The notes beneath the pieces are model-generated. The model was not told the origin of the DNA, did not search any database, and saw only the letters and a list, made by a program, of their open reading frames with translations. The translations under genes were made by a program, and so were the position numbers. From a virus, in the IMG/VR virus record IMGVR_UViG_3300049855_000258, positions 1 to 37,061 of that record: a stretch of 37,061 bases of DNA. One strand, 5' to 3'. Positions 2,292-35,855 of this stretch are shown in pieces; position 1 is the first letter of the stretch; each line of letters opens with the position of its first letter.

Positions 2292-5117
2292 TTACTTACA
2301 TGATGTTTGCGACGAATAAATATCCCCATCGAGAGTATAAATGTACGTGTAGCCCCCACCATCAATGTCTTTCATCTCAATACATGAACCTTTAGTGGCG
2401 GAGTTGGAGTCTACGGAAAGGGTAGTAGTAGAGGTGGAGAATAGTTGGAGTAGTGAGGATGGTGAAGTGGTAGCTATACCAATATTACCTGTAGAAATAG
2501 TAGAACCTACTCCGTCTATAGCTGTACCAAAGATAATATTTCCTATGTTTAGCTGATTGGAAGCGGTAGCACTTGGCATATCTATATTTGAGCCTAAACC
2601 TAGGTTGTGAGAGCCTGTGGTGACGTTGTCTGCTACTTGATACCCCAAGTAAGTTGAAGACGCTCCTGTTGTATTTAAAGCTCCAGCATAATAGCCCATA
2701 AAGGTGTTGAAGTCAGAGTTAGATTGAACATTCTCGCCAGCTCGGTAACCAACATAGACTCCACCCTGATTAAAATAAGCACCAGTACCCTGTCCAGCTT
2801 CATTACCGACCGCAACTGTGGTGGTAGCAGATATATTTCGTTGAAGGGCATTTGAACCAATAGCGGTGTTCTCACTTCCTGTTATGTTACTAAACAATGA
2901 TGACACACCAATAGCAGTGTTTTCTGAAGTGTTTAAAGATGAATACATTGACGACTCACCAAGACAGAAGTTAGAAAAACCAAGTTCTAAACTATAGCAA
3001 GCCTCTGTTCCTAGGGCGACATTACCATCTCCACCATTTATAGAAAACAAAGAGCTTTCTCCAATAGCTGTGTTGTATGAGGAGTCACCAGCCACATTTC
3101 CATACATAGCGTTATAACCTAGGGCGACGTTTCTTCCACTGTTACCAAACAAGTTGTGACCAGCATCTGTACCGATTAAAGTGTTGTAATTTGACGCATT
3201 AGTCAAACCAGCTCTAGCACCTAAGAAAGTGTTACCCAAAGCATTAGCCTGCATACCTAATCCAGCTTGATAGCCAATACAAGTGTTGTCTTGACCTGTT
3301 AGTCCACCAATCAGACCACCCCAAGCGAAAGCACCTTTACAAGCCTGATAGCCAACACCAACTGAGTTTAGTGTGGTAGTGGCTAAGTTAAAAGCTTCGT
3401 AACCTATGGCTACACTGTTACTAGAAGTAGCGGTTGTAAACATTGCACTATCTCCAATAGCAACAGTTTTTTGGTGAGTTGCTCCAGCTGTTCTTCCTAG
3501 AGCTTGATAACCTAAACCGACATTACTGTTTGAGTCTGACATACCATAACCAGCAAATGTACCAGCTAAGAGGTTTTGAAAGCCTGTAGTGTTAGATTCT
3601 CCTGTCTGATATCCGATGAAGTTATTACTTATACCTGTCATTGTGTCGTTACCAGCGTTTCCTAAACAGATAGAGTAGGTAGTGATGTTATTTCCACACC
3701 AGCCGAGGGTGCGAGTTTCATTCATCATTAGACCTGTGGTACTAGCGATATTGACCATACCACCTGCCACGTTTAGAGCGGTATCAGCCGAGGATATGAG
3801 GTTAGTCGGACCAATAGCTACTCTTGTAATACCTAAAACTGGGTCGGGTTGATACGTGTCTCTACTGGCTTGATTAAACTCTACCCAACCACCGATACCA
3901 ACAAGAGCCGATGGGTCTATCCAGTCGTAGTTTCCACCACCAGCGGAGTTAGTTAAGACTTGGTTGATGAGTCCATAGTCGCCTGAGGTGTCAAGATAGC
4001 CATTTGGTTTGATACCTGCGTCAAAGTCATATTCTGTCGCATTATTAAAAGATAAAACAGATGTAGTAGTGGCGAATATTATTTTTGCATTACTCCCAAC
4101 GTCGTTAGAATAAAAAGATAGACAAGGATTAGTTGTTAGGCATAACCCATTTATATTGGTCTCTCCGATAATAGGCGAGCCATTTATCCATAAAAGATCC
4201 CCGAGTCCACCGGCGGCGACTGGTGATAAACGAGGAAGATAAAATATCCCTAGATTTAACAAATCTAAAATATCAGTGGTTAAAGATGCCCCATTACCTG
4301 TTACTGCAGTACTACCTACTACTTCTAAGTTAGCTTCCGTGGTAGTGGCAGTGTCTCCAATTAAGACTTTATCTCCCACGGTGGTAGTTCTGATTCCTAC
4401 TCCATTAAATTGCTCCCATAAAGAAGTTGGTATATCTGAAAGATAAGCAATAACACCAGAAGCATCTTGAAAGGTAGCGGTTTGGTTACCAGTTAAAGAG
4501 TTAGGGTCTAGGGTTAAAGTTTGAGCGTTTCCAGTACCGACATTCGCAAACAAAACATTACCTTGAGTACCAGCACCAGCAGGAGCTCCAAAGCCCAAAA
4601 TAACATTGCCAGCGTTACCGTTTCCGCCTTGGGCGTTACCGCCATAAATGCCAAAATCACCTCCATTACCATCGGTTAAGCCACCATCTCCAGCCTGGAG
4701 AGAAACTGCCCCACCGTTACCTGTGCCATCCCCTGTAGAGCCAAACCAAGTTACCGGAAAGCCATTACTATCGGTTGTTGTGGCGTCTTGAGTGTCTAGG
4801 TAAATAGAAGCAAAGCCTGGAGTAGAGTAATCTATCAACATACCTCCAAAGGCTCCGTTATTGTTAAATTGAATTTGAGAGTTAGAGCCACCAGGAGTGC
4901 TTGATCCACCACAAGTACCTAACTCAAAAGTAAAAGGGGTGTCGTCTAAAACTTTTATACAGTCACCCACATCGCCAACAGTTGCCGAGCCTATACCAGT
5001 ACCTCCTTGAGTTGGTCTTAGCACACTTAGTTGAGCCGAAGCTTGAGAAGCAAAAATAATACTCCCTATAAAGATTAAAACCAAAATTGCTGATGTTGTA
5101 TAAAAGAGTTTTTTCAT
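2292..5117 (-). CDS. large secreted/fibre protein with YadA-head-like repeats (941 aa)
   Basis: A signal peptide or membrane anchor covers residues 1-28 (MKKLFYTTSAILVLIFIGS... ending ASQASAQ). A Gly/Asn-rich N-terminal half follows, including 'SNSQIQFNNNGAFGG' near residue 80. From about residue 480 to 860 there are about 20 copies of a repeat of the form 'NTAIGxxAGxxNTTG', the left-handed beta-roll repeat of YadA-type trimeric adhesin heads. The C-terminus ends in 'IEMKDIDGGGYTYIYTLDGD' and a Cys pair. To my knowledge this ending and the repeat phrasing are characteristic of Patescibacteria/CPR surface proteins. It lies inside the fibre cluster, 3 bases from the collagen-like gene. A signal peptide is odd for a virion fibre: the product may be displayed on the host surface, or the fibre gene may have been captured from a host adhesin. 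Confidence 0.8.
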   Translation of the reverse strand: MKKLFYTTSAILVLIFIGSIIFASQASAQLSVLRPTQGGTGIGSATVGDVGDCIKVLDDTPFTFELGTCGGSSTPGGSNSQIQFNNNGAFGGMLIDYSTPGFASIYLDTQDATTTDSNGFPVTWFGSTGDGTGNGGAVSLQAGDGGLTDGNGGDFGIYGGNAQGGNGNAGNVILGFGAPAGAGTQGNVLFANVGTGNAQTLTLDPNSLTGNQTATFQDASGVIAYLSDIPTSLWEQFNGVGIRTTTVGDKVLIGDTATTTEANLEVVGSTAVTGNGASLTTDILDLLNLGIFYLPRLSPVAAGGLGDLLWINGSPIIGETNINGLCLTTNPCLSFYSNDVGSNAKIIFATTTSVLSFNNATEYDFDAGIKPNGYLDTSGDYGLINQVLTNSAGGGNYDWIDPSALVGIGGWVEFNQASRDTYQPDPVLGITRVAIGPTNLISSADTALNVAGGMVNIASTTGLMMNETRTLGWCGNNITTYSICLGNAGNDTMTGISNNFIGYQTGESNTTGFQNLLAGTFAGYGMSDSNSNVGLGYQALGRTAGATHQKTVAIGDSAMFTTATSSNSVAIGYEAFNLATTTLNSVGVGYQACKGAFAWGGLIGGLTGQDNTCIGYQAGLGMQANALGNTFLGARAGLTNASNYNTLIGTDAGHNLFGNSGRNVALGYNAMYGNVAGDSSYNTAIGESSLFSINGGDGNVALGTEACYSLELGFSNFCLGESSMYSSLNTSENTAIGVSSLFSNITGSENTAIGSNALQRNISATTTVAVGNEAGQGTGAYFNQGGVYVGYRAGENVQSNSDFNTFMGYYAGALNTTGASSTYLGYQVADNVTTGSHNLGLGSNIDMPSATASNQLNIGNIIFGTAIDGVGSTISTGNIGIATTSPSSLLQLFSTSTTTLSVDSNSATKGSCIEMKDIDGGGYTYIYTLDGDIYSSQTSCK

Positions 5118-5988: not shown

Positions 5989-7424
5989 TTTTTAGGCTTC
6001 ACAAAGCCTTTGCTTTTTAGATATTGCCCTAAGCTTTTAACTCCCTTGTCTCCTACAAACTCAATTTTGTTGCCTACTCGGTACAAAACTTGCCCCCCTA
6101 CAGTTCTAACTGGTACGGTTGCCATATCCCAAGCCGAAGTCCAAAAACTACCAAAGCCTCCTTTTGAGCCCTGCTCTGTGATTGCTTTAATCCCTATTTT
6201 TTCTAACTCTTTCAGGTTCCCCCAGTCAATATAGGCTTTCTTTATATTTTGGTCTTTTAGAGAATCATAAGTCTTTTTTCTTATAGCATTGGCCATATCA
6301 TTTTGGAGAGTCCTATACTCATTGGCTATAGATTTACCCCTAAACACTTTCTCAGGAGTAAACTCATCGAGCCCTTGTTTTACTTTTTGAGCTACTTCTA
6401 AGGTGTAATTATCTACGTCTTTATACTCATCTTTTATCGCATCGAAAGCATCTTCTAAAGCTTTTTTTCTGCCTGGTTCTACCGTACTATTTATTCTATC
6501 TATTATTGGATTAAATAATTCGTCTTTAGTTACGACATCCTTAGATACTTTCAAAGCTGGTGCTATGGTGTTGTTGTATAATTTTTGGTTAGCTCTACGT
6601 GATTGAACCCCAATTTGTGTCTGGGTACCAAACAAACCCTTCTCTAACCCGGTATCAGCTCTCGTTATCGGTGCTGAAACGATTTTTCCTGATTCGTCAT
6701 ATATAGGGCTTCCTGTTATTGCTGATTTTAAACGTTGGGTAAAAGGAGCTTTCGCTTTGTAAGTCAATATCTGCTCTGCCTCTTTGACGTTGGGAGTGAT
6801 AGCCGACTTAAAAATAGCAGACCCTGTTTTTGAAGTTGTCACACCTGATTTAGAAAGAACTTTTCCTCCAGTCTCAAGAGTTTGCCCAGCAACAGTGGCC
6901 CCAGCCTTTAAAACACCTTTACCAGCTATTTGGGTTCCTTTCATCGCTGGTATTAAAGATGTTATATTTAAAACAGCTTCCAAGTCCCCAGCAACCTCAG
7001 GATTTTTTTCTTTAAAAGCTGAATAACTTTCTAGCCCTGCCTGGATAGCTTCCAACCCTTTTTTACCTGCTGTGGTGTTCAGTATTGCAGTCCCCACTGG
7101 TTTTATAACGTTTTCAGTTACTCCTGTTATTTCACCTACAGATTTTAATGCCTCACCACCAACATCACCAACCATCCCAGCTACTTGTCCTGACGATTGC
7201 AAAAATCCTGAGGCAAGTGATTGTTTTCCTGTATCTACTTTTTGTCTAGCTTCAATAACATTTTGATTTCTATCTTGAAATGAAGACTTCACCCCTGAAA
7301 GAAACCCGCCCCCCATACTTGGTGGGTTTACAGAAGCTACCGAAGCTGAAGTTGTAGAGGTTAAACCTTTCTGTTCGTTTAACCTTGCTTTTAATTTTTC
7401 AAACTCTTGGGATGATAGTGCCAT
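5985..7424 (-). CDS. putative internal virion / DNA-ejection protein (479 aa)
   Basis: I do not recognise a named domain. Alternating Gly/Ala/Ser-rich amphipathic helices (residues 40-215, for example 'VAGMVGDVGGEALKSVGEITG' and 'LKAGATVAGQTLETGGKVLSK') are followed by a charged helical domain (residues 270-420) and a basic C-terminus. This composition, a large helical protein with membrane-active Gly/Ala helices, matches the ejection proteins of P22- and T7-like phages. The location fits: it directly follows another large helical protein and the nozzle-like gene, and precedes the fibres. The gap to the upstream gene is 5 bases. The stop is TAG at 5985. Role in genome delivery through the envelope is inference. 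Confidence 0.6.
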   Translation of the reverse strand: MALSSQEFEKLKARLNEQKGLTSTTSASVASVNPPSMGGGFLSGVKSSFQDRNQNVIEARQKVDTGKQSLASGFLQSSGQVAGMVGDVGGEALKSVGEITGVTENVIKPVGTAILNTTAGKKGLEAIQAGLESYSAFKEKNPEVAGDLEAVLNITSLIPAMKGTQIAGKGVLKAGATVAGQTLETGGKVLSKSGVTTSKTGSAIFKSAITPNVKEAEQILTYKAKAPFTQRLKSAITGSPIYDESGKIVSAPITRADTGLEKGLFGTQTQIGVQSRRANQKLYNNTIAPALKVSKDVVTKDELFNPIIDRINSTVEPGRKKALEDAFDAIKDEYKDVDNYTLEVAQKVKQGLDEFTPEKVFRGKSIANEYRTLQNDMANAIRKKTYDSLKDQNIKKAYIDWGNLKELEKIGIKAITEQGSKGGFGSFWTSAWDMATVPVRTVGGQVLYRVGNKIEFVGDKGVKSLGQYLKSKGFVKPKN

Positions 7425-23467: not shown

Positions 23468-23929
23468 TCACTCACGTCGTTTTCCTTTACCTTTATAGTT
23501 GTCGGTTAAACAATGGCAATCTTCGCATAGAGTTATTCCATTGGTAATATCCCAAAGCTCACTACACTTACGGGCATCTAAAATATCTTTTATATTATAC
23601 TCTTTTAATATCTTTGCAAACCCCTTTTTGTGGTGAACTGTTAGATATACCCCATTAATCCTGCAAGTTCGGCAAGTCCAATTATCTCTAACAAAACAAT
23701 CAGAACGCCACTGTTTATAATCTAAAGAATCCCTAATTATTTTATTCTGTGGGGTTATCCCACCTTTCCAATTAGAACTTTTAATACCAGTTTTACCTTT
23801 ATGAGACTTACTCAAATTTGCTTTATGTTCATCACTCATTTTTTTACCAAGCCAATACCCTTTACTTCCTTTTTTAGAATTAGAAATTTTTAATTTAGCA
23901 CTTTCTGTGTGAGGTTTATTGTGTCCCAT
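23468..23929 (-). CDS. HNH homing endonuclease with NUMOD3 motifs (153 aa)
   Basis: I chose ATG 23929 (MGHNKPHTESAKLKISNSKKG) because the N-terminal NUMOD3 motifs start there; an ATG at 23944 would add five residues. NUMOD3 helices occur at residues 6-20 and 31-47. The HNH core is 'WRSDCFVRDNWTCRTCRINGVYLTVHHKKGFAKI' with C-x-x-C, His-His and a final 'NGITLCEDCHCLTD'. It nicks or cuts DNA at a homing site in related phage genomes. It overlaps the TerS gene by 14 bases and is followed by the stump of another HNH gene, placing it in a recombination-prone interval between TerS and the next structural gene. Confidence 0.85.
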   Translation of the reverse strand: MGHNKPHTESAKLKISNSKKGSKGYWLGKKMSDEHKANLSKSHKGKTGIKSSNWKGGITPQNKIIRDSLDYKQWRSDCFVRDNWTCRTCRINGVYLTVHHKKGFAKILKEYNIKDILDARKCSELWDITNGITLCEDCHCLTDNYKGKGKRRE

Positions 23930-24173
23930 TGAATGAACGGTCAAAAGTAATAATAACTTCTCCCCTTACTTCACTGTCTACTGGTTGAATAGCTTTGCCC
24001 ATATGTTGCTCTAAGCAGAATCTAAGCATATTAGAGTCACCAGCAGTAGCCATCTCAATAGCTTTAGTTACTAGTTTCTTTACTTCTTCTTCAGTTATGT
24101 AATCAGAAAAACGAGGTTTCGATATAGAACCTTTTGGTCTGCCTGCTCCTGGTTGTTTACCTCCTTTAGCCAT
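23916..24173 (-). CDS. small terminase subunit-like protein (85 aa)
   Basis: The N-terminus 'KGGKQPGAGRPKGS' is the 'GGKQPGAGRPKG' phrase that opens many phage small terminase and related DNA-binding proteins. A helical segment follows (ITEEEVKKLVTKAIEMATAGDSNMLRFCLEQHMGKAIQPVDSEVRGEV), matching the short TerS-like family that ends in 'GKA.Q.v..e..g...i'. It would recognise packaging sites and feed DNA to TerL. It is the first gene of the packaging module. At 85 aa it is shorter than classical TerS proteins, and the HNH gene starts within its last codons, so slight C-terminal alteration by the insertion is possible. Confidence 0.65.
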   Translation of the reverse strand: MAKGGKQPGAGRPKGSISKPRFSDYITEEEVKKLVTKAIEMATAGDSNMLRFCLEQHMGKAIQPVDSEVRGEVIITFDRSFNGTQ

Positions 24174-26683: not shown

Positions 26684-27021
26684 AAAAAACCCTTACTTTT
26701 TAAGATAGTAAGTTCCCGACTTTACCTTTCGATATTCTGCATTCATTTTAAATTAGATGGTTAGTTAAGCTGTGCGGTCACCTTTTACATTACCCTCCTT
26801 GATAGTGATACACGGACAATGTTTTATTTCATACCCACACTTCCCTTGAATAAATCCGATACTAATCAGACGGCTCGGTGACAAGTCGGACAGTCATTTT
26901 CCGAGCTTTCGCATCAGTACCTCATTTACCCTTATTTGTTTCCCAAAGTTTACTAGACTTGGTTAGTTTGGAGAGCTAGTTTTACTTGCAAGCCCACATA
27001 AGCAAGGTTTCATCTTAATTG
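26684..27021. other. 338-base interval without a convincing gene
   Basis: No ATG frame longer than about 20 codons is credible on either strand. It holds one imperfect hairpin (26873-26906) and a possible TTG-initiated minus frame at 26765-26884 (39 aa, with 'KCGYEIKHCPCITIKEG', three Cys). An AAGGAGGG sequence is followed by ATG and an immediate TAA, a start-stop pair without product. The upper end joins the terminator of the small RNA at 27022. It may be the untranslated upstream part of the HNH transcript or the debris of a lost gene. Confidence 0.5.
26873..26906 (-). other. imperfect hairpin
   Basis: GCTCGG and CCGAGC (26873-26878, 26901-26906) enclose TGAC/GTCA with a 10-base loop and a 4-base bulge, a 10-bp interrupted stem. 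It lies in the otherwise empty interval upstream of the HNH gene. No U tract follows, so it is not an obvious terminator. Confidence 0.45.
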
Positions 27022-31817: not shown

Positions 31818-31902
31818 GTGGTAAACTTGTAGTGTCTTGGAACTCTGCCAAGTAAGCGTTTGCAGGTATCGCTTTGAAACCTTTTAAATTATATATAACC
31901 GC

Positions 31903-31934
31903 AAATCCCCCTTTCTTTCGATTGGGGGATTTTT
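31903..31934. other. G/C-rich hairpin downstream of the initiator promoter
   Basis: AAATCCCCC and GGGGGATTT form a 9-bp stem with a 12-base loop. On the plus strand it ends in TTTTT, a terminator shape; on the minus strand only TTT follows. It lies about 30 bases after the predicted start of the initiator transcript, so it could protect or attenuate that mRNA, or terminate stray plus-strand transcription. Confidence 0.5.
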
Positions 31935-31969
31935 GGTAGGATTAAAACTGCACACTGAAAGGTAAACAT

Positions 31970-31998
31970 AGTATATCAAAACAAAAACCCACTATCAA
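31970..31998 (-). promoter_or_regulatory. promoter for the initiator operon
   Basis: -35 TTGATA (31998-31993), a 17-base spacer and -10 TATACT (31975-31970): each hexamer differs from the sigma-70 consensus at one position, one of the best promoters in the genome. It overlaps the terminator stem of the preceding structured RNA. The predicted start is near 31963, giving a leader of about 320 bases to the initiator ATG that includes the hairpin and both DnaA boxes. Confidence 0.7.
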
Positions 31999-32018
31999 GT
32001 TTTACCAAGATAGCAGGT
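31981..32018 (-). terminator. intrinsic terminator of the 32-kb structured RNA
   Basis: On the minus strand CTATC/GATAG (32013-32009 with 31996-31992), flanked by ACC/GGT pairs, has a 12-base loop and is followed by GGGTTTTTGTTTT. It ends the structured RNA unit and overlaps the initiator promoter. Confidence 0.7.
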
Positions 32019-32171
32019 TAGAGTTCAACGATAGGGTTCGTAACTTGTTGTGAGCTTGTAAAGTCACCATACGGAAACCTCATCAATTTACAAGATTTAC
32101 ACCAACCCGTCGTTACAGCCCGCAAAATTCTTTTCCTTTAAAAAGATAAAGATGTTGAAAAGTTTGGGACT
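31981..32171 (-). ncRNA. candidate structured non-coding RNA (about 190 nt)
   Basis: A long-range helix closes the element: AACGA-C-GGGTT (32114-32104) pairs with AACCC-TA-TCGTT (32038-32027), ten pairs around a small internal loop. Inside it is a perfect 8-bp hairpin CTTGTAAA/TTTACAAG (32094-32087 with 32062-32055) with a 24-base loop. Downstream is the intrinsic terminator at 31981-32018. A -10 TATAAT occurs at 32183-32178, placing the start near 32171. No open frame of note is present in 32019-32170. The combination of closing stem, internal hairpin, terminator and absence of coding capacity supports an RNA gene; its function is unknown. Confidence 0.6.
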
Positions 32172-32177
32172 GGATAT

Positions 32178-32183
32178 ATTATA
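32178..32183 (-). promoter_or_regulatory. -10 element for the structured RNA
   Basis: TATAAT on the minus strand, placed 15-20 bases after the terminator of the lysis operon. No recognisable -35 is at the standard distance, so the assignment is weaker than for the other promoters. Confidence 0.35.
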
Positions 32184-32191
32184 AAATAGAT

Positions 32192-32231
32192 AACAAAAAT
32201 CCCCTAGAGTATCGACCCTCTAATTGGGGAT
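32192..32231 (-). terminator. intrinsic terminator after the lytic transglycosylase
   Basis: On the minus strand ATCCCC plus TAGAG pairs with CTCTA plus GGGGAT (32231-32226 and 32222-32218 with 32209-32199), with a small bulge and an 8-base loop, followed by TTTTTGTT. It ends the lysis operon about 45 bases after the stop at 32278. Confidence 0.8.
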
Positions 32232-32277
32232 AAGTGTTGTCGAAAGTAAAACTTGTGAGTTTGTACTTTATAATGTT

Positions 32278-32757
32278 TTAGGGGTCGATAGCCCCTTGAT
32301 ATTTATTGTAACAATTTTTCCAATGATTGAACCCTCCTTTCTTGTAAAGTTCAAATGCATAAGCGATATTGTTTTCTGGTATTTTTAACCAGTCTTCACT
32401 TGGTCGTGATTTAGCGTTAGCCCCGTAAAGATTGATCTGGAAGACACCGACACTGTGATCTTTGGTTTTAGGATTGTTGTTTACCACTGTGCTAGAGGCA
32501 TTACTTTCACAAATAGCAATCCCGACCATTATATCTTCATTTACCCCCTGTTTTTTCGCTTCTGTGCGTATCATTTGGGCAATAGTAGTCGTGGATAGGG
32601 TAGTGGTGGAAACTTGCGAAATTGAGGGTGTTTCAGCCACTTGGGGCGATGTTTGGGCGATAATCTGCCTACGCTCGGGAGGTTCTTCAGCTAAAACCGC
32701 ACTTTGGGGGGTGAAAAATAAAGACGATACCCCCAAAATTAAGGGTATGAGGTTCAT
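32278..32757 (-). CDS. secreted lytic transglycosylase (SLT/lysozyme-like)
   Basis: 159 aa. Residues 1-24 are a signal peptide (MNLIPLILGVSSLFFTPQSAVLAEE), followed by a Ser/Thr/Pro linker. The catalytic domain shows 'MVGIAICESNASST' with Glu84 in the E-S-N motif, then 'SVGVFQINLYG' and 'IPENNIAYAFELYKKGGFNHWKNCYN', the SLT goose-lysozyme-like layout 'ICESN...G.fQIN......NI..A..lY...G...W..C'. It cleaves peptidoglycan glycan strands. With an export signal it may act as a signal-arrest-type endolysin or an entry lysozyme. The holin gene is directly upstream (3-base gap) and a terminator follows. Confidence 0.82.
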   Translation of the reverse strand: MNLIPLILGVSSLFFTPQSAVLAEEPPERRQIIAQTSPQVAETPSISQVSTTTLSTTTIAQMIRTEAKKQGVNEDIMVGIAICESNASSTVVNNNPKTKDHSVGVFQINLYGANAKSRPSEDWLKIPENNIAYAFELYKKGGFNHWKNCYNKYQGAIDP

Positions 32758-33650: not shown

Positions 33651-33757
33651 AGCGGTGTCCTTTTTCTGGTTAAGATGTAAGGTAGGCGGTATATGTAAAT
33701 GATTACACATACCAATAACGCAAGTGATAAAACTATATTGAGTTTTATTTTATCCAT
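33647..33757 (-). CDS. 36-aa single-pass membrane protein
   Basis: The frame reads 'MDKIKLNIVLSLALLVCVII' then 'YIYRLPYILTRKRTPL': a short basic start, one transmembrane helix (residues 6-24) and a strongly basic C-terminus. It starts at ATG 33757 within the upstream gene's TAATG overlap and ends at TGA overlapping the next ATG, so it is translationally coupled on both sides. Small basic single-pass proteins in lysis operons can be pinholins, antiholins or spanin-like, but no assignment is certain. Confidence 0.65.
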   Translation of the reverse strand: MDKIKLNIVLSLALLVCVIIYIYRLPYILTRKRTPL

Positions 33758-33912
33758 TACTTCTTCCCTCGCCAGTAGTCACGACGAGCAATTTTAGCGT
33801 CCCTAGCACGCTTCTGCATACAAGGGAGACAGACCTGTGATTTGGACGGATGTCCACAGAAAAGACAACGTGGAAACCAATAGTCTCGAAAACTTTGTAT
33901 TATTTTCTTCAT
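33757..33912 (-). CDS. zinc-finger miniprotein with strong ribosome-binding site (51 aa)
   Basis: The protein reads 'IIQSFRDYWFPRCLFCGHPS', 'QVCLPCMQKRARDAKIARRD' and 'YWRGKK'. Two C-x-x-C pairs (CLFC, CLPC), 13 residues apart, form a zinc knuckle, and the rest is basic. GGGAGGTG 5 bases before the ATG is the best Shine-Dalgarno in the genome. It is the first gene after the 340-base structured block, 27 bases from its end. It is coupled by TAATG to the membrane gene. A regulatory or nucleic-acid binding role is inferred. Confidence 0.68.
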   Translation of the reverse strand: MKKIIQSFRDYWFPRCLFCGHPSKSQVCLPCMQKRARDAKIARRDYWRGKK

Positions 33913-33938
33913 ATACACCTCCCATTTTTAAAGACCTA

Positions 33939-34037
33939 TATTGACCGCCCACCCTCGACCATAAAGGTGTAAGGGCCTCCCTCGGATTCTCAATCGCATA
34001 TCAAACTTGGTCTACGATTGAGGGTGGAGGGTCAATA
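33939..34037 (-). ncRNA. structured block, domain I (16-bp closing stem)
   Basis: TATTGACC plus CCACCCTC (33939-33946, 33949-33956) pair with GAGGGTGG plus GGTCAATA (34020-34027, 34030-34037) around a 2x2 internal loop. Inside, AATCG/CGATT can extend to CTCAATCG/CGATTGAG at the expense of part of the outer stem, and AGGG/CCCT forms a small hairpin. In the minus sense one internal-loop position becomes a U-G pair, weakly favouring minus transcription. No coding frame of interest runs through it. Confidence 0.6.
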
Positions 34038-34043
34038 GATTTA

Positions 34044-34125
34044 AGAACACTGCACGACGGCGGAGACCGTAAGCTCATAGAGTGATAGCTCTAATGTGTG
34101 GAAGCACATCGCCGTGCGGTGTTCT
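34044..34125. ncRNA. structured block, domain II (cloverleaf-like)
   Basis: AGAACAC (34044-34050) pairs with GTGTTCT (34119-34125), continuing through GCACG and GCG pairs to a stem of about 15 bp with a 3-base bulge. Inside are two hairpins, ATGTG/CACAT and TAGAG/CTCTA, each with a 6-base loop, and a weaker GAG/CTC arm, giving a four-way-junction shape. It is not a tRNA: the outer stem is far too long and no T-loop is seen. One mismatch is U-G if read on plus and C-A if read on minus, so the strand is uncertain. Confidence 0.6.
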
Positions 34126-34157
34126 CAAATCAAATAGAGAAATTCTTATTCTCTTTA

Positions 34158-34282
34158 GAAAACTGGAGCGAGATTTACCTGCGGTCGAGGACAGGTGGCT
34201 TTTTAGGCTCTTTATATGTGGAAAAATTGAAAAGTTAGTCGTCGGGCTACCGACGTGTTTCGCAACTTGTTCTCCAGTTTTC
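34158..34282. ncRNA. structured block, domain III (11-bp closing stem)
   Basis: GAAAACTGGAG (34158-34168) pairs perfectly with CTCCAGTTTTC (34272-34282). It encloses ACCTG/CAGGT (34177-34181, 34192-34196) and CGTCGG/CCGACG with a 4-base loop (34240-34255), a three-way junction. It abuts the terminator of the acidic mini-gene. Because all helices are perfect, the strand cannot be told from wobble pairs. Confidence 0.6.
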
Positions 34283-34311
34283 AAAAGAAAAGCCCACCAA
34301 TAAAGGTGAGC
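34283..34311 (-). terminator. intrinsic terminator of the acidic mini-gene
   Basis: On the minus strand GCTCACC/GGTGGGC (34311-34305 with 34298-34292), one U-G pair and a 6-base loop, is followed by TTTTCTTTT. It lies 6 bases after the stop of the 36-aa acidic gene and immediately before structured domain III. Confidence 0.75.
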
Positions 34312-34317
34312 AGTTCG

Positions 34318-34428
34318 TTATGCTTCTACTTCTTCAGAAACAGTTTCGTCCAAACTTTCTTCGGTCTCCACAATTTCTTCAGGGGTCTCTGTGGTTTCCT
34401 CAGCTACAACGTTTTCATCTTCATTCAT
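34318..34428 (-). CDS. 36-aa highly acidic protein
   Basis: The frame begins 'MNEDENVVAEETTETPEEIV' and has 16 Glu/Asp among 36 residues with no Lys or Arg. It has its own promoter (34461-34471) and terminator (34283-34311), an independent transcription unit. The N-terminus resembles the acidic start of the scaffold protein (MNENENEI). Similar tiny acidic phage proteins can mimic DNA or inhibit host enzymes, but no specific evidence exists here. The leader ATTTTGCAAA lacks a Shine-Dalgarno. Confidence 0.6.
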   Translation of the reverse strand: MNEDENVVAEETTETPEEIVETEESLDETVSEEVEA

Positions 34429-34460
34429 TTTGCAAAATGGTTAAATGAGTAATACCCAAC

Positions 34461-34471
34461 AGTATAACATT
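34461..34471 (-). promoter_or_regulatory. extended -10 promoter for the acidic mini-gene
   Basis: Minus-strand ATGTTATACT carries a TG extension and -10 TATACT (34466-34461). There is no convincing -35. The predicted start is about 25 bases upstream of the ATG at 34428. Confidence 0.5.
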
Positions 34472-34505
34472 TTTGACAAGTAAATACTATTACAACACAC
34501 CTACC

Positions 34506-34634: not shown

Positions 34635-35855
34635 TTATTTCAGCTTAAAATAATAAGTAGGAATCAGCCCATACTTTTGAAAGTAATTTTCCCATTTCTT
34701 AACTGTGAAGTGAGTGTCAAAATATCCCTTGTTGGAGTTGTTGGACATTATGTAGTTTGTACCATCGGGACTTGCTTTACGTCCTACTAAACCGATATGC
34801 CCGTTAGAAAGCGGACTTCCTTTAGGGATTTGGCCTGTTACGGAGACAATCACACAGTCAGGTTCTGGTTTATCTAGCTTCACCCAGTCTTTACTGCTTT
34901 TCATAAAGTCATACCACTGAGAAGTGTTAGCAAAACGAAGCGTTGGTTTTTCAGGGAAAGCTTTGTTGTAGACTGCCGACATACTTAAAGCACACCCTAA
35001 AACTTCCATACCGACTGCTAGGTTTTTCCCTATAAGACTTTTAGCTGTCTGATAAAGTTTGTCGGAGTTACTCATTACAGGTACAGGAGCTGGTGTAGGC
35101 ATAGGTAGTTGAAGTTTTAATTTTGCTAGTAATTCAAGTAGGAAGTCTAGTAAAGATTGCTTGCTTTTTATTGTAACGGACATTGCTTTACATCGGGATA
35201 TTTTATGAGTGTAGGGGATTGTTTTTATAGAGTGGTCGTAAGAGTCAAAGATTTTCCAACCTTTGCCTTTCTCTTCAGAAAAAAGGACACACCAGTGATT
35301 ATTGGGTTGTCCTTTGTCTACATATACTCCGTCCTTTAGGTGCCAAGCTGATACAGATACTCCCAAAGGAGAGACTTTTAGAGCTTCACGGATTAAAGTT
35401 GTTTGAGCTTCGGTTGTGTGTTCATAATAGAAAACCCACCAATGATTAAAGGTAAAAGGAAACTCACTGGCTTTTTGAAGTAGTTTATCAGTCATCGGCT
35501 TAGGGGTAGTGAACTCTTTATAGGTACTTGGGACGGGTAGTAGGTCATTGTCTATCAGACCTGTTTTACGGATACTTTCATATACGACGTGGGGATCGGC
35601 ACCACCTAGTTGGACATTCGCCACTATATAGTTAAATCTCTCAGAAAAATTATACTCATACCCATACAAGGCTTTTAAAAGTATTTCTAGTTGGTTTTGA
35701 GTTCCCCATACTGTACAACCAAATGTCTCAAAATTTTCTGCTTGAGGTTCATAGACTGGTAGATATTTAGACCAGTCAAGATTAAGTTCCTTGGCTTCGT
35801 TTCCAAACCATTGCCCTATGTCTATTATACTTTCAATTAAGCCGTAATTTTTCAT
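34635..35855 (-). CDS. two-domain cysteine peptidase, probable endolysin (406 aa)
   Basis: Domain 1 (residues 1-235) looks papain-like: Cys48 in 'FETFGCTVWGTQNQLE', His187 in 'PNNHWCVLF' and Asp204 in 'KIFDSYDHS', with 'GGADPHVVYESIRKTGLID' between, a layout seen in phage C1/C39-like peptidases. A Pro-rich linker (about 251-262) leads to domain 2 with Cys288 in 'EVLGCALSMSAVYN' and His353 in 'LSNGHIGLVG', an NlpC/P60 or CHAP-like Cys-His pair. Two peptidase domains in tandem suggest a peptidoglycan crosslink-cleaving endolysin or virion-associated hydrolase. It is coupled (ATGA) to the membrane protein upstream, which could be its holin. Confidence 0.72.
   Translation of the reverse strand: MKNYGLIESIIDIGQWFGNEAKELNLDWSKYLPVYEPQAENFETFGCTVWGTQNQLEILLKALYGYEYNFSERFNYIVANVQLGGADPHVVYESIRKTGLIDNDLLPVPSTYKEFTTPKPMTDKLLQKASEFPFTFNHWWVFYYEHTTEAQTTLIREALKVSPLGVSVSAWHLKDGVYVDKGQPNNHWCVLFSEEKGKGWKIFDSYDHSIKTIPYTHKISRCKAMSVTIKSKQSLLDFLLELLAKLKLQLPMPTPAPVPVMSNSDKLYQTAKSLIGKNLAVGMEVLGCALSMSAVYNKAFPEKPTLRFANTSQWYDFMKSSKDWVKLDKPEPDCVIVSVTGQIPKGSPLSNGHIGLVGRKASPDGTNYIMSNNSNKGYFDTHFTVKKWENYFQKYGLIPTYYFKLK

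Follow-up and report, generated by a model that had tools for sequence, protein, structure and literature searches.

The RNase III signals of phage T7 are the R sites, which lie between its early genes. Patescibacteria are tiny, abundant, and uncultured, and, to our knowledge, little is known of gene control in their phages. Among phage-borne noncoding RNAs, many GOLLD members are more than 800 nt long (PMC12286853). Stem-loop arrays of the TIGR-Tas type are known from phages and Patescibacteria (PMC12045711).

Here, we analyze a 353-nt block of a phage genome from IMG/VR (record IMGVR_UViG_3300049855_000258; the whole stretch of 37,061 nt is referred to as the window). The block (33939–34291) consists of three RNA-like domains arranged end to end in a 350-base gap. 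Comparable but sequence-unrelated structures in related phages suggest that phages carry a previously undescribed group of RNA elements.

Results

Three domains with long closing stems

The three multibranched domains, D1, D2, and D3, measure 94–143 nt and abut almost completely, D2 and D3 being contiguous (Table 1). Each is closed by a stem of 17–21 bp containing one mismatch. The initial annotation of the sequence had described three adjacent domains, each with a long closing stem around at least two smaller hairpins, and this description holds; the 11-bp perfect stem that it recorded is part of the 18-bp closing stem of D1.

The structure of the block is beyond chance. In particular, its top three stems together score 56, whereas 1000 dinucleotide shuffles do not exceed 33.5, and three separate domains with scores of at least 11 occur in 1 of 1000 dinucleotide shuffles of the block. 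For the whole block, the fold energies are −132.9 kcal/mol (minus strand; z = −5.8) and −134.7 kcal/mol (plus strand; z = −6.05), and on neither strand do any of 100 shuffles fold as well. Among the noncoding long stems of the window, those of the block are the best. The block contains no direct repeats.

No gene runs through the block, as the initial annotation had stated: the only ORFs over it, one of 69 aa (TTG start, minus strand) and one of 73 aa (GTG start, plus strand), are mechanical, and family searches gave nothing below E = 0.16. The annotation had recognized neither GOLLD nor ROOL and had proposed a search with Rfam covariance models. That search confirmed its non-recognition and returned no other family: Rfam 15 models give no match at the gathering score in the whole window and nothing relevant up to E = 5 in 33700–34500. 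Neither ARAGORN nor Rfam identifies a tRNA or tRNA-like gene in the window.

Table 1. Features of the block and its surroundings in the window
Feature	Coordinates	Strand	Description
Lysin-like gene	34635–35855	−	406 aa; upstream of block; sub-threshold CHAP match, E = 0.082
Putative extended −10 promoter element	34461–34469	−	TGTTATACT; TGnTA...T pattern; consensus match only
Acidic ORF	34318–34428	−	36 aa, very acidic (MNEDENVVAEETTETPEEIVETEESLDETVSEEVEA); translation; no family
Intrinsic-terminator-like hairpin	34292–34311	−	GCTCACC-TTTATT-GGTGGGC, then TTTTCTTTT; real-looking
D1	34149–34291	−	18-bp closing stem (7 bp, 1×1 mismatch, 11-bp perfect stem); 4 hairpins enclosed
D2	34038–34131	−	21-bp closing stem, 1×1 mismatch after 13 bp; 3 hairpins
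D3	33939–34037	−	17-bp closing stem, 1×1 mismatch after 8 bp; 3 hairpins
Shine-Dalgarno site	33917–33922	−	GGAGGT; 4 nt before ATG at 33912
Zinc-ribbon-like ORF	33757–33912	−	51 aa; first gene after block; weak DZR_2 match, E = 0.0069, below cut-off
SLT lysozyme gene	32278–32757	−	Further down same strand; PF18896 and PF01464 above cut-off
Further long-stem element	26847–26931	−	25 bp with three 2×2 internal loops

Operon context and strand

The block was annotated as lying between an intrinsic terminator and the ribosome-binding site of the first gene of the lysis operon. The terminator-like hairpin and the Shine-Dalgarno site with its ATG are in place; the gene that follows, however, is the zinc-ribbon-like ORF, with the SLT lysozyme gene further down. 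In the predicted folds, the U-tract of the terminator (TTTTCTTTT) also forms the lower 5′ arm of D1. The TGTTATACT site, upstream of the acidic ORF, is the nearest candidate start for a transcript entering the block; between terminator and block, no site resembling a promoter was found. Homologues of the lysin-like gene (35–36%) occur in relatives G003 and G047. Elsewhere on the minus strand of the window, a 425-nt noncoding structured gap (31852–32277, z about −6) lies between the SLT lysozyme gene and a DnaD-like replication gene cluster, and a NUMOD3 and HNH gene of the homing endonuclease type (23468–23944) lies near the terminase genes.

The block itself has no strand preference (−137.6 kcal/mol for the minus strand vs −138.6 kcal/mol for the plus strand): the plus strand gives the slightly or clearly better fold for D1 and D2, and the minus strand for D3, matching the mixed wobble evidence that had been annotated. 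The context favors the minus strand, because the neighboring genes all lie on it, the terminator precedes the block, a ribosome-binding site and ATG follow it, and the TGTTATACT site has the same orientation.

On the minus strand, the 3′ half of D1 and the 3′ arm of D3 can form a long-range helix. Because this helix competes strongly, D1 and D3 close with a probability of only about 25–50%; D2 closes with a probability of ~1.0, as it does on the plus strand. Competition between the three-domain fold and this helix would be part of a reading in which the block is a regulatory leader without processing, i.e., a long 5′ UTR whose alternative folds would time lysis-gene expression through attenuation, antitermination, or control of translation. 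The location between a terminator and the ribosome-binding site of the next operon is consistent with such a leader, as is a syntenic structure in G047 that directly leads a lysozyme-like ORF. We nevertheless consider this reading doubtful. Specifically, no classical attenuator or sequestrator is visible, because the predicted folds leave the ribosome-binding site unpaired and no U-tract follows the last domain; moreover, kin elements lead many unrelated small genes, and a gene-specific switch would therefore need frequent reinvention.

Related phages and their likely host

Relatives were identified through the terminase: 44 in IMG/VR with 57–74% identity, and further ones by alignment. In genome collections, the terminase matched a 38-kb contig in the metagenome-assembled genome (MAG) Candidatus Parcubacteria SURF_53 (68%) and two contigs in groundwater MAGs; one of these three MAG-binned relatives was grouped with a Nitrosotalea MAG. 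The lysin, the replication gene, and the first downstream ORF yielded no relatives in IMG/VR. The tail fiber yielded three there, which were set aside as otherwise unrelated to the window phage. The terminase frame of one relative (L029 8882–10297, plus strand) has one in-frame stop near its C-terminus.

A nucleotide search for homologues of the block, also proposed in the initial annotation, found none in 2.9 million viral contigs (IMG/VR, searched with a domain-2 pattern), INPHARED, or PLSDB, and none among 44 terminase-related or control records.

The host is likely a member of the Patescibacteria, because one relative occurs in a Parcubacteria MAG, Shine-Dalgarno sites are few (3–18% of long ORFs in most clade genomes; 72% in T7), and TATAAT is enriched before clade genes (95 vs 54 expected); the binning of a phage contig into a MAG is no proof of host. 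Bacteroidota-type promoters were dropped, with only 8 observed vs 3.3 expected while TATAAT stood at 95 vs 54. A Shine-Dalgarno loss special to the genes after the elements was rejected, since the entire clade is poor in such sites.

Long-stem elements across the clade

Noncoding long stems are strongly enriched in the clade. A scan for noncoding inverted repeats around at least 35 nt covered 64 contigs of the clade (880 kb) and, as controls, 56 phage contigs (940 kb). At stem scores of at least 16, the clade has 12 elements vs 0.75 expected, and the controls have 0 vs 0.25; at scores of at least 18, the clade has 8 vs 0.15 expected, and the controls 0 vs 0. Longer structured gaps are likewise more frequent in the clade: among the gaps scanned, z falls below −4 in 20 of 124, compared with 8 of 114 in the controls.

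We selected 26 elements by stem, partly by eye, so that their closing-stem length (13–54 bp, median 25) was itself a selection criterion; nearly all stems carry a 1×1 or 2×2 mismatch. The elements are mostly intergenic, with the next ATG about 4–45 nt past the 3′ arm. As judged by eye, long-stem elements repeatedly have a tiny ORF of acidic or charged composition next to them (the acidic ORF of the window and the clade loci L059, L070, and L161). Strong stems inside genes of relatives, such as one in a DNA methylase-like frame (L059 5780–5908, by eye), were dropped.

With the sense strand set by neighboring genes (a weak context in a few elements: G006, G021, and G030), 21 of the 26 elements fold better on the sense than on the antisense strand. 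The mean sense–antisense difference is −6.4 kcal/mol vs −2.2 kcal/mol (SD 0.6) for shuffled sequences, with 0 of 40 shuffle sets as low, and G-U pairs over the 26 elements number 109 on the sense strand vs 55 on the antisense strand. The further long-stem element of the window folds at −32.7 kcal/mol in sense vs −18.2 kcal/mol in antisense. Structure at the RNA level is well supported.

The heads show no sequence conservation across the clade. A motif apparently common to several elements, AGTATTC, was dropped, as its counts in the loci showed nothing specific. One known RNA occurs beside an element: in G015, a LOOT RNA (RF03000; L179 4149–4274, plus strand; 69.1 bits vs a cut-off of 46.4) lies 28 nt after a long-stem element. 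L059 (G005) contains a match to the tRNA model RF00005 at 6524–6604 on the minus strand (42.2 bits) that is absent from ARAGORN output, and a noncoding gap of L161 (G030; 4418–4776) contains iterated GTCTACA-type repeats that build long palindromes, resembling an operator or origin array and unlike the other elements.

Paralogous elements and a possible DNA-level role

G020 carries two paralogous elements 560 bases apart, which have common flanks and an identical outer 14 bp. Their inner stems differ almost throughout: of 11 aligned inner pairs, 9 are changed on both sides and remain paired in both copies (by eye); such compensated pairing was found in this one paralogous pair only. A pattern search with the G020 flanks returned G020 itself and two unstructured chance matches. 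The head of one copy (L181 2136–2241, minus strand) resembles a tRNA and has a T-arm-like GTAGGTTTGAATCCTAC; a tRNA-like reading was rejected, the tRNA-Sec model scoring 22.9 bits against a cut-off of 47.

Common flanks and a common outer stem around a different interior are what cassette exchange could give, and the two strands of the block fold about equally; both observations would suit a DNA-level element whose palindromes, as extruded or single-stranded hairpins, would take part in recombination, replication, or cassette exchange. We regard a DNA-level role as very unlikely because of the strand bias in the kin elements: a DNA hairpin would not explain a sense strand favored beyond shuffles with twice the G-U pairs. 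The lack of direct repeats in the block also speaks against it.

The lysin locus and a large noncoding stretch

Lysin homologues were found in G003, G006, G021, G045, and G047. In G047 (lysin 36%), the gap between the lysin and the lysozyme-like ORF contains a TGGTATAAT promoter-like site and, after it, a tandem of two long-stem domains; in one of these, a 7+11 bp stem encloses 177 nt. In G021, an element of 203 nt whose 22-bp stem is perfect lies downstream of lysin and holin-like ORFs, although its strand is uncertain. At the lysin locus of G003, there are only a terminator and a small hairpin and no such block, and that of G006 has nothing of the kind. The long-stem feature is thus recurrent at the lysin locus but not universal, being present in G047 and absent from G003 and G006.

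The Parcubacteria SURF_53 phage contig contains a candidate large RNA, a 602-nt noncoding stretch before a small acidic ORF (L190 7122–7723, minus strand). Its fold (−271 kcal/mol, z = −9.8; antisense strand −221 kcal/mol, z = −6.1) has one long outer stem around several branches, two of which are tandem 87-nt long-stem domains. This outer stem, and the long-range helix that would tie the domains of the block together, would be compatible with a single large ornate trans-acting RNA in the manner of GOLLD and ROOL, the domains being parts with tertiary or oligomeric structure. For the block, we judge this unlikely: it matches neither GOLLD, ROOL, OLE, nor any other Rfam family, the heads lack sequence conservation across the clade, and its 353 nt compare with more than 800 nt for many GOLLD members (PMC12286853).

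Discussion

The initial annotation had left three options for the block: a large phage RNA of a new kind, a very long 5′ leader, or three processed RNAs in tandem. A structured minus-strand leader or processed RNA outside Rfam fits, because a ribosome-binding site and start codon follow the block, its kin mostly stand before start codons, and sense-strand folding is favored in the clade; a GOLLD or ROOL RNA does not. The reading that we tentatively prefer, at somewhat less than even confidence and by analogy, is that the block is a structured minus-strand leader of the small-ORF/lysozyme operon whose closing stems would serve as RNase III-type processing sites. RNase III signals comprise about two helical turns and are usually interrupted, and the closing stems (18, 21, and 17 bp, each with a 1×1 mismatch) have this form. 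An RNase III-type reading is suggested by this length and mismatch, together with the intercistronic position, the tandem arrangement, and the lack of sequence conservation. RNase III is encoded in the MAGs G045 and G047, which carry kin of the window phage, and not in the window.

In the preferred reading, the block would be transcribed on the minus strand with the downstream small ORF and lysozyme operon, by transcription that presumably passes the terminator. Each domain would form an independent RNA head on a double-stranded stem of about two helical turns and one mismatch. Cleavage within the closing stems by the RNase III of the host would yield the terminated message from upstream, as many as three small structured RNAs, and a lysis-operon mRNA whose new 5′ end would lie immediately ahead of its ribosome-binding site. 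The released heads might act as small RNAs or might be spacers only. Counting against a processed leader are the lack of homologues of the block in the collections searched, the terminator directly before it with no promoter-like site in between, the equal folding of the plus strand (which is the better one for D1), the competition affecting D1 and D3, and the absence of such a block from the lysin loci of G003 and G006.

It is also possible, although rather unlikely, that the elements form a fast-evolving class of small RNAs in Patescibacteria phages, having in common only a closing helix of ~20–28 bp that is interrupted by a mismatch close to its first turn. In that case, the heads would be exchangeable trans-acting cargo, with roles in, for instance, host takeover or counter-defense, and the block would be a three-unit array.

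If confirmed, the elements would be an RNA feature of Patescibacteria phages that escapes sequence-based RNA searches because only the architecture is preserved, and they would show that architecture-level screens for long closing stems in gaps can find noncoding RNAs that covariance models miss. The elements also provide a defined set of sites for direct tests of processing.

Tandem palindromic units in a phage of Patescibacteria host range recall the guide-RNA arrays of TIGR-Tas, whose tandem palindromic RNA units occur in phages and Patescibacteria (PMC12045711). TIGR-type arrays are extremely improbable here and can in practice be excluded, since no Nop-domain protein (PF01798) is found in the window or in 20 relatives, control genomes being positive, and the block has no repeats; in addition, its three units are larger (94–143 nt) and multibranched.

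Like the RNA predicted for the block, LOOT RNA (RF03000) is a structured RNA from metagenomes, and in G015 one LOOT copy adjoins a long-stem element; LOOT RNA is absent from the window and from 27 other relatives searched. With GOLLD and ROOL, the block shares a phage-borne, noncoding character and extensive secondary structure (PMC12286853). It differs from them in its smaller size, in having no covariance-model match and no core conserved in relatives, and in having no tRNA nearby in the window. The T7 R sites are likewise long, interrupted, intergenic stems spanning about two helical turns; a genome has several of them, and their sequences are little conserved. In contrast to the small loop of those sites, the stems described here enclose 40–180 nt with several hairpins, they occur in tandem, and their cleavage is a prediction.
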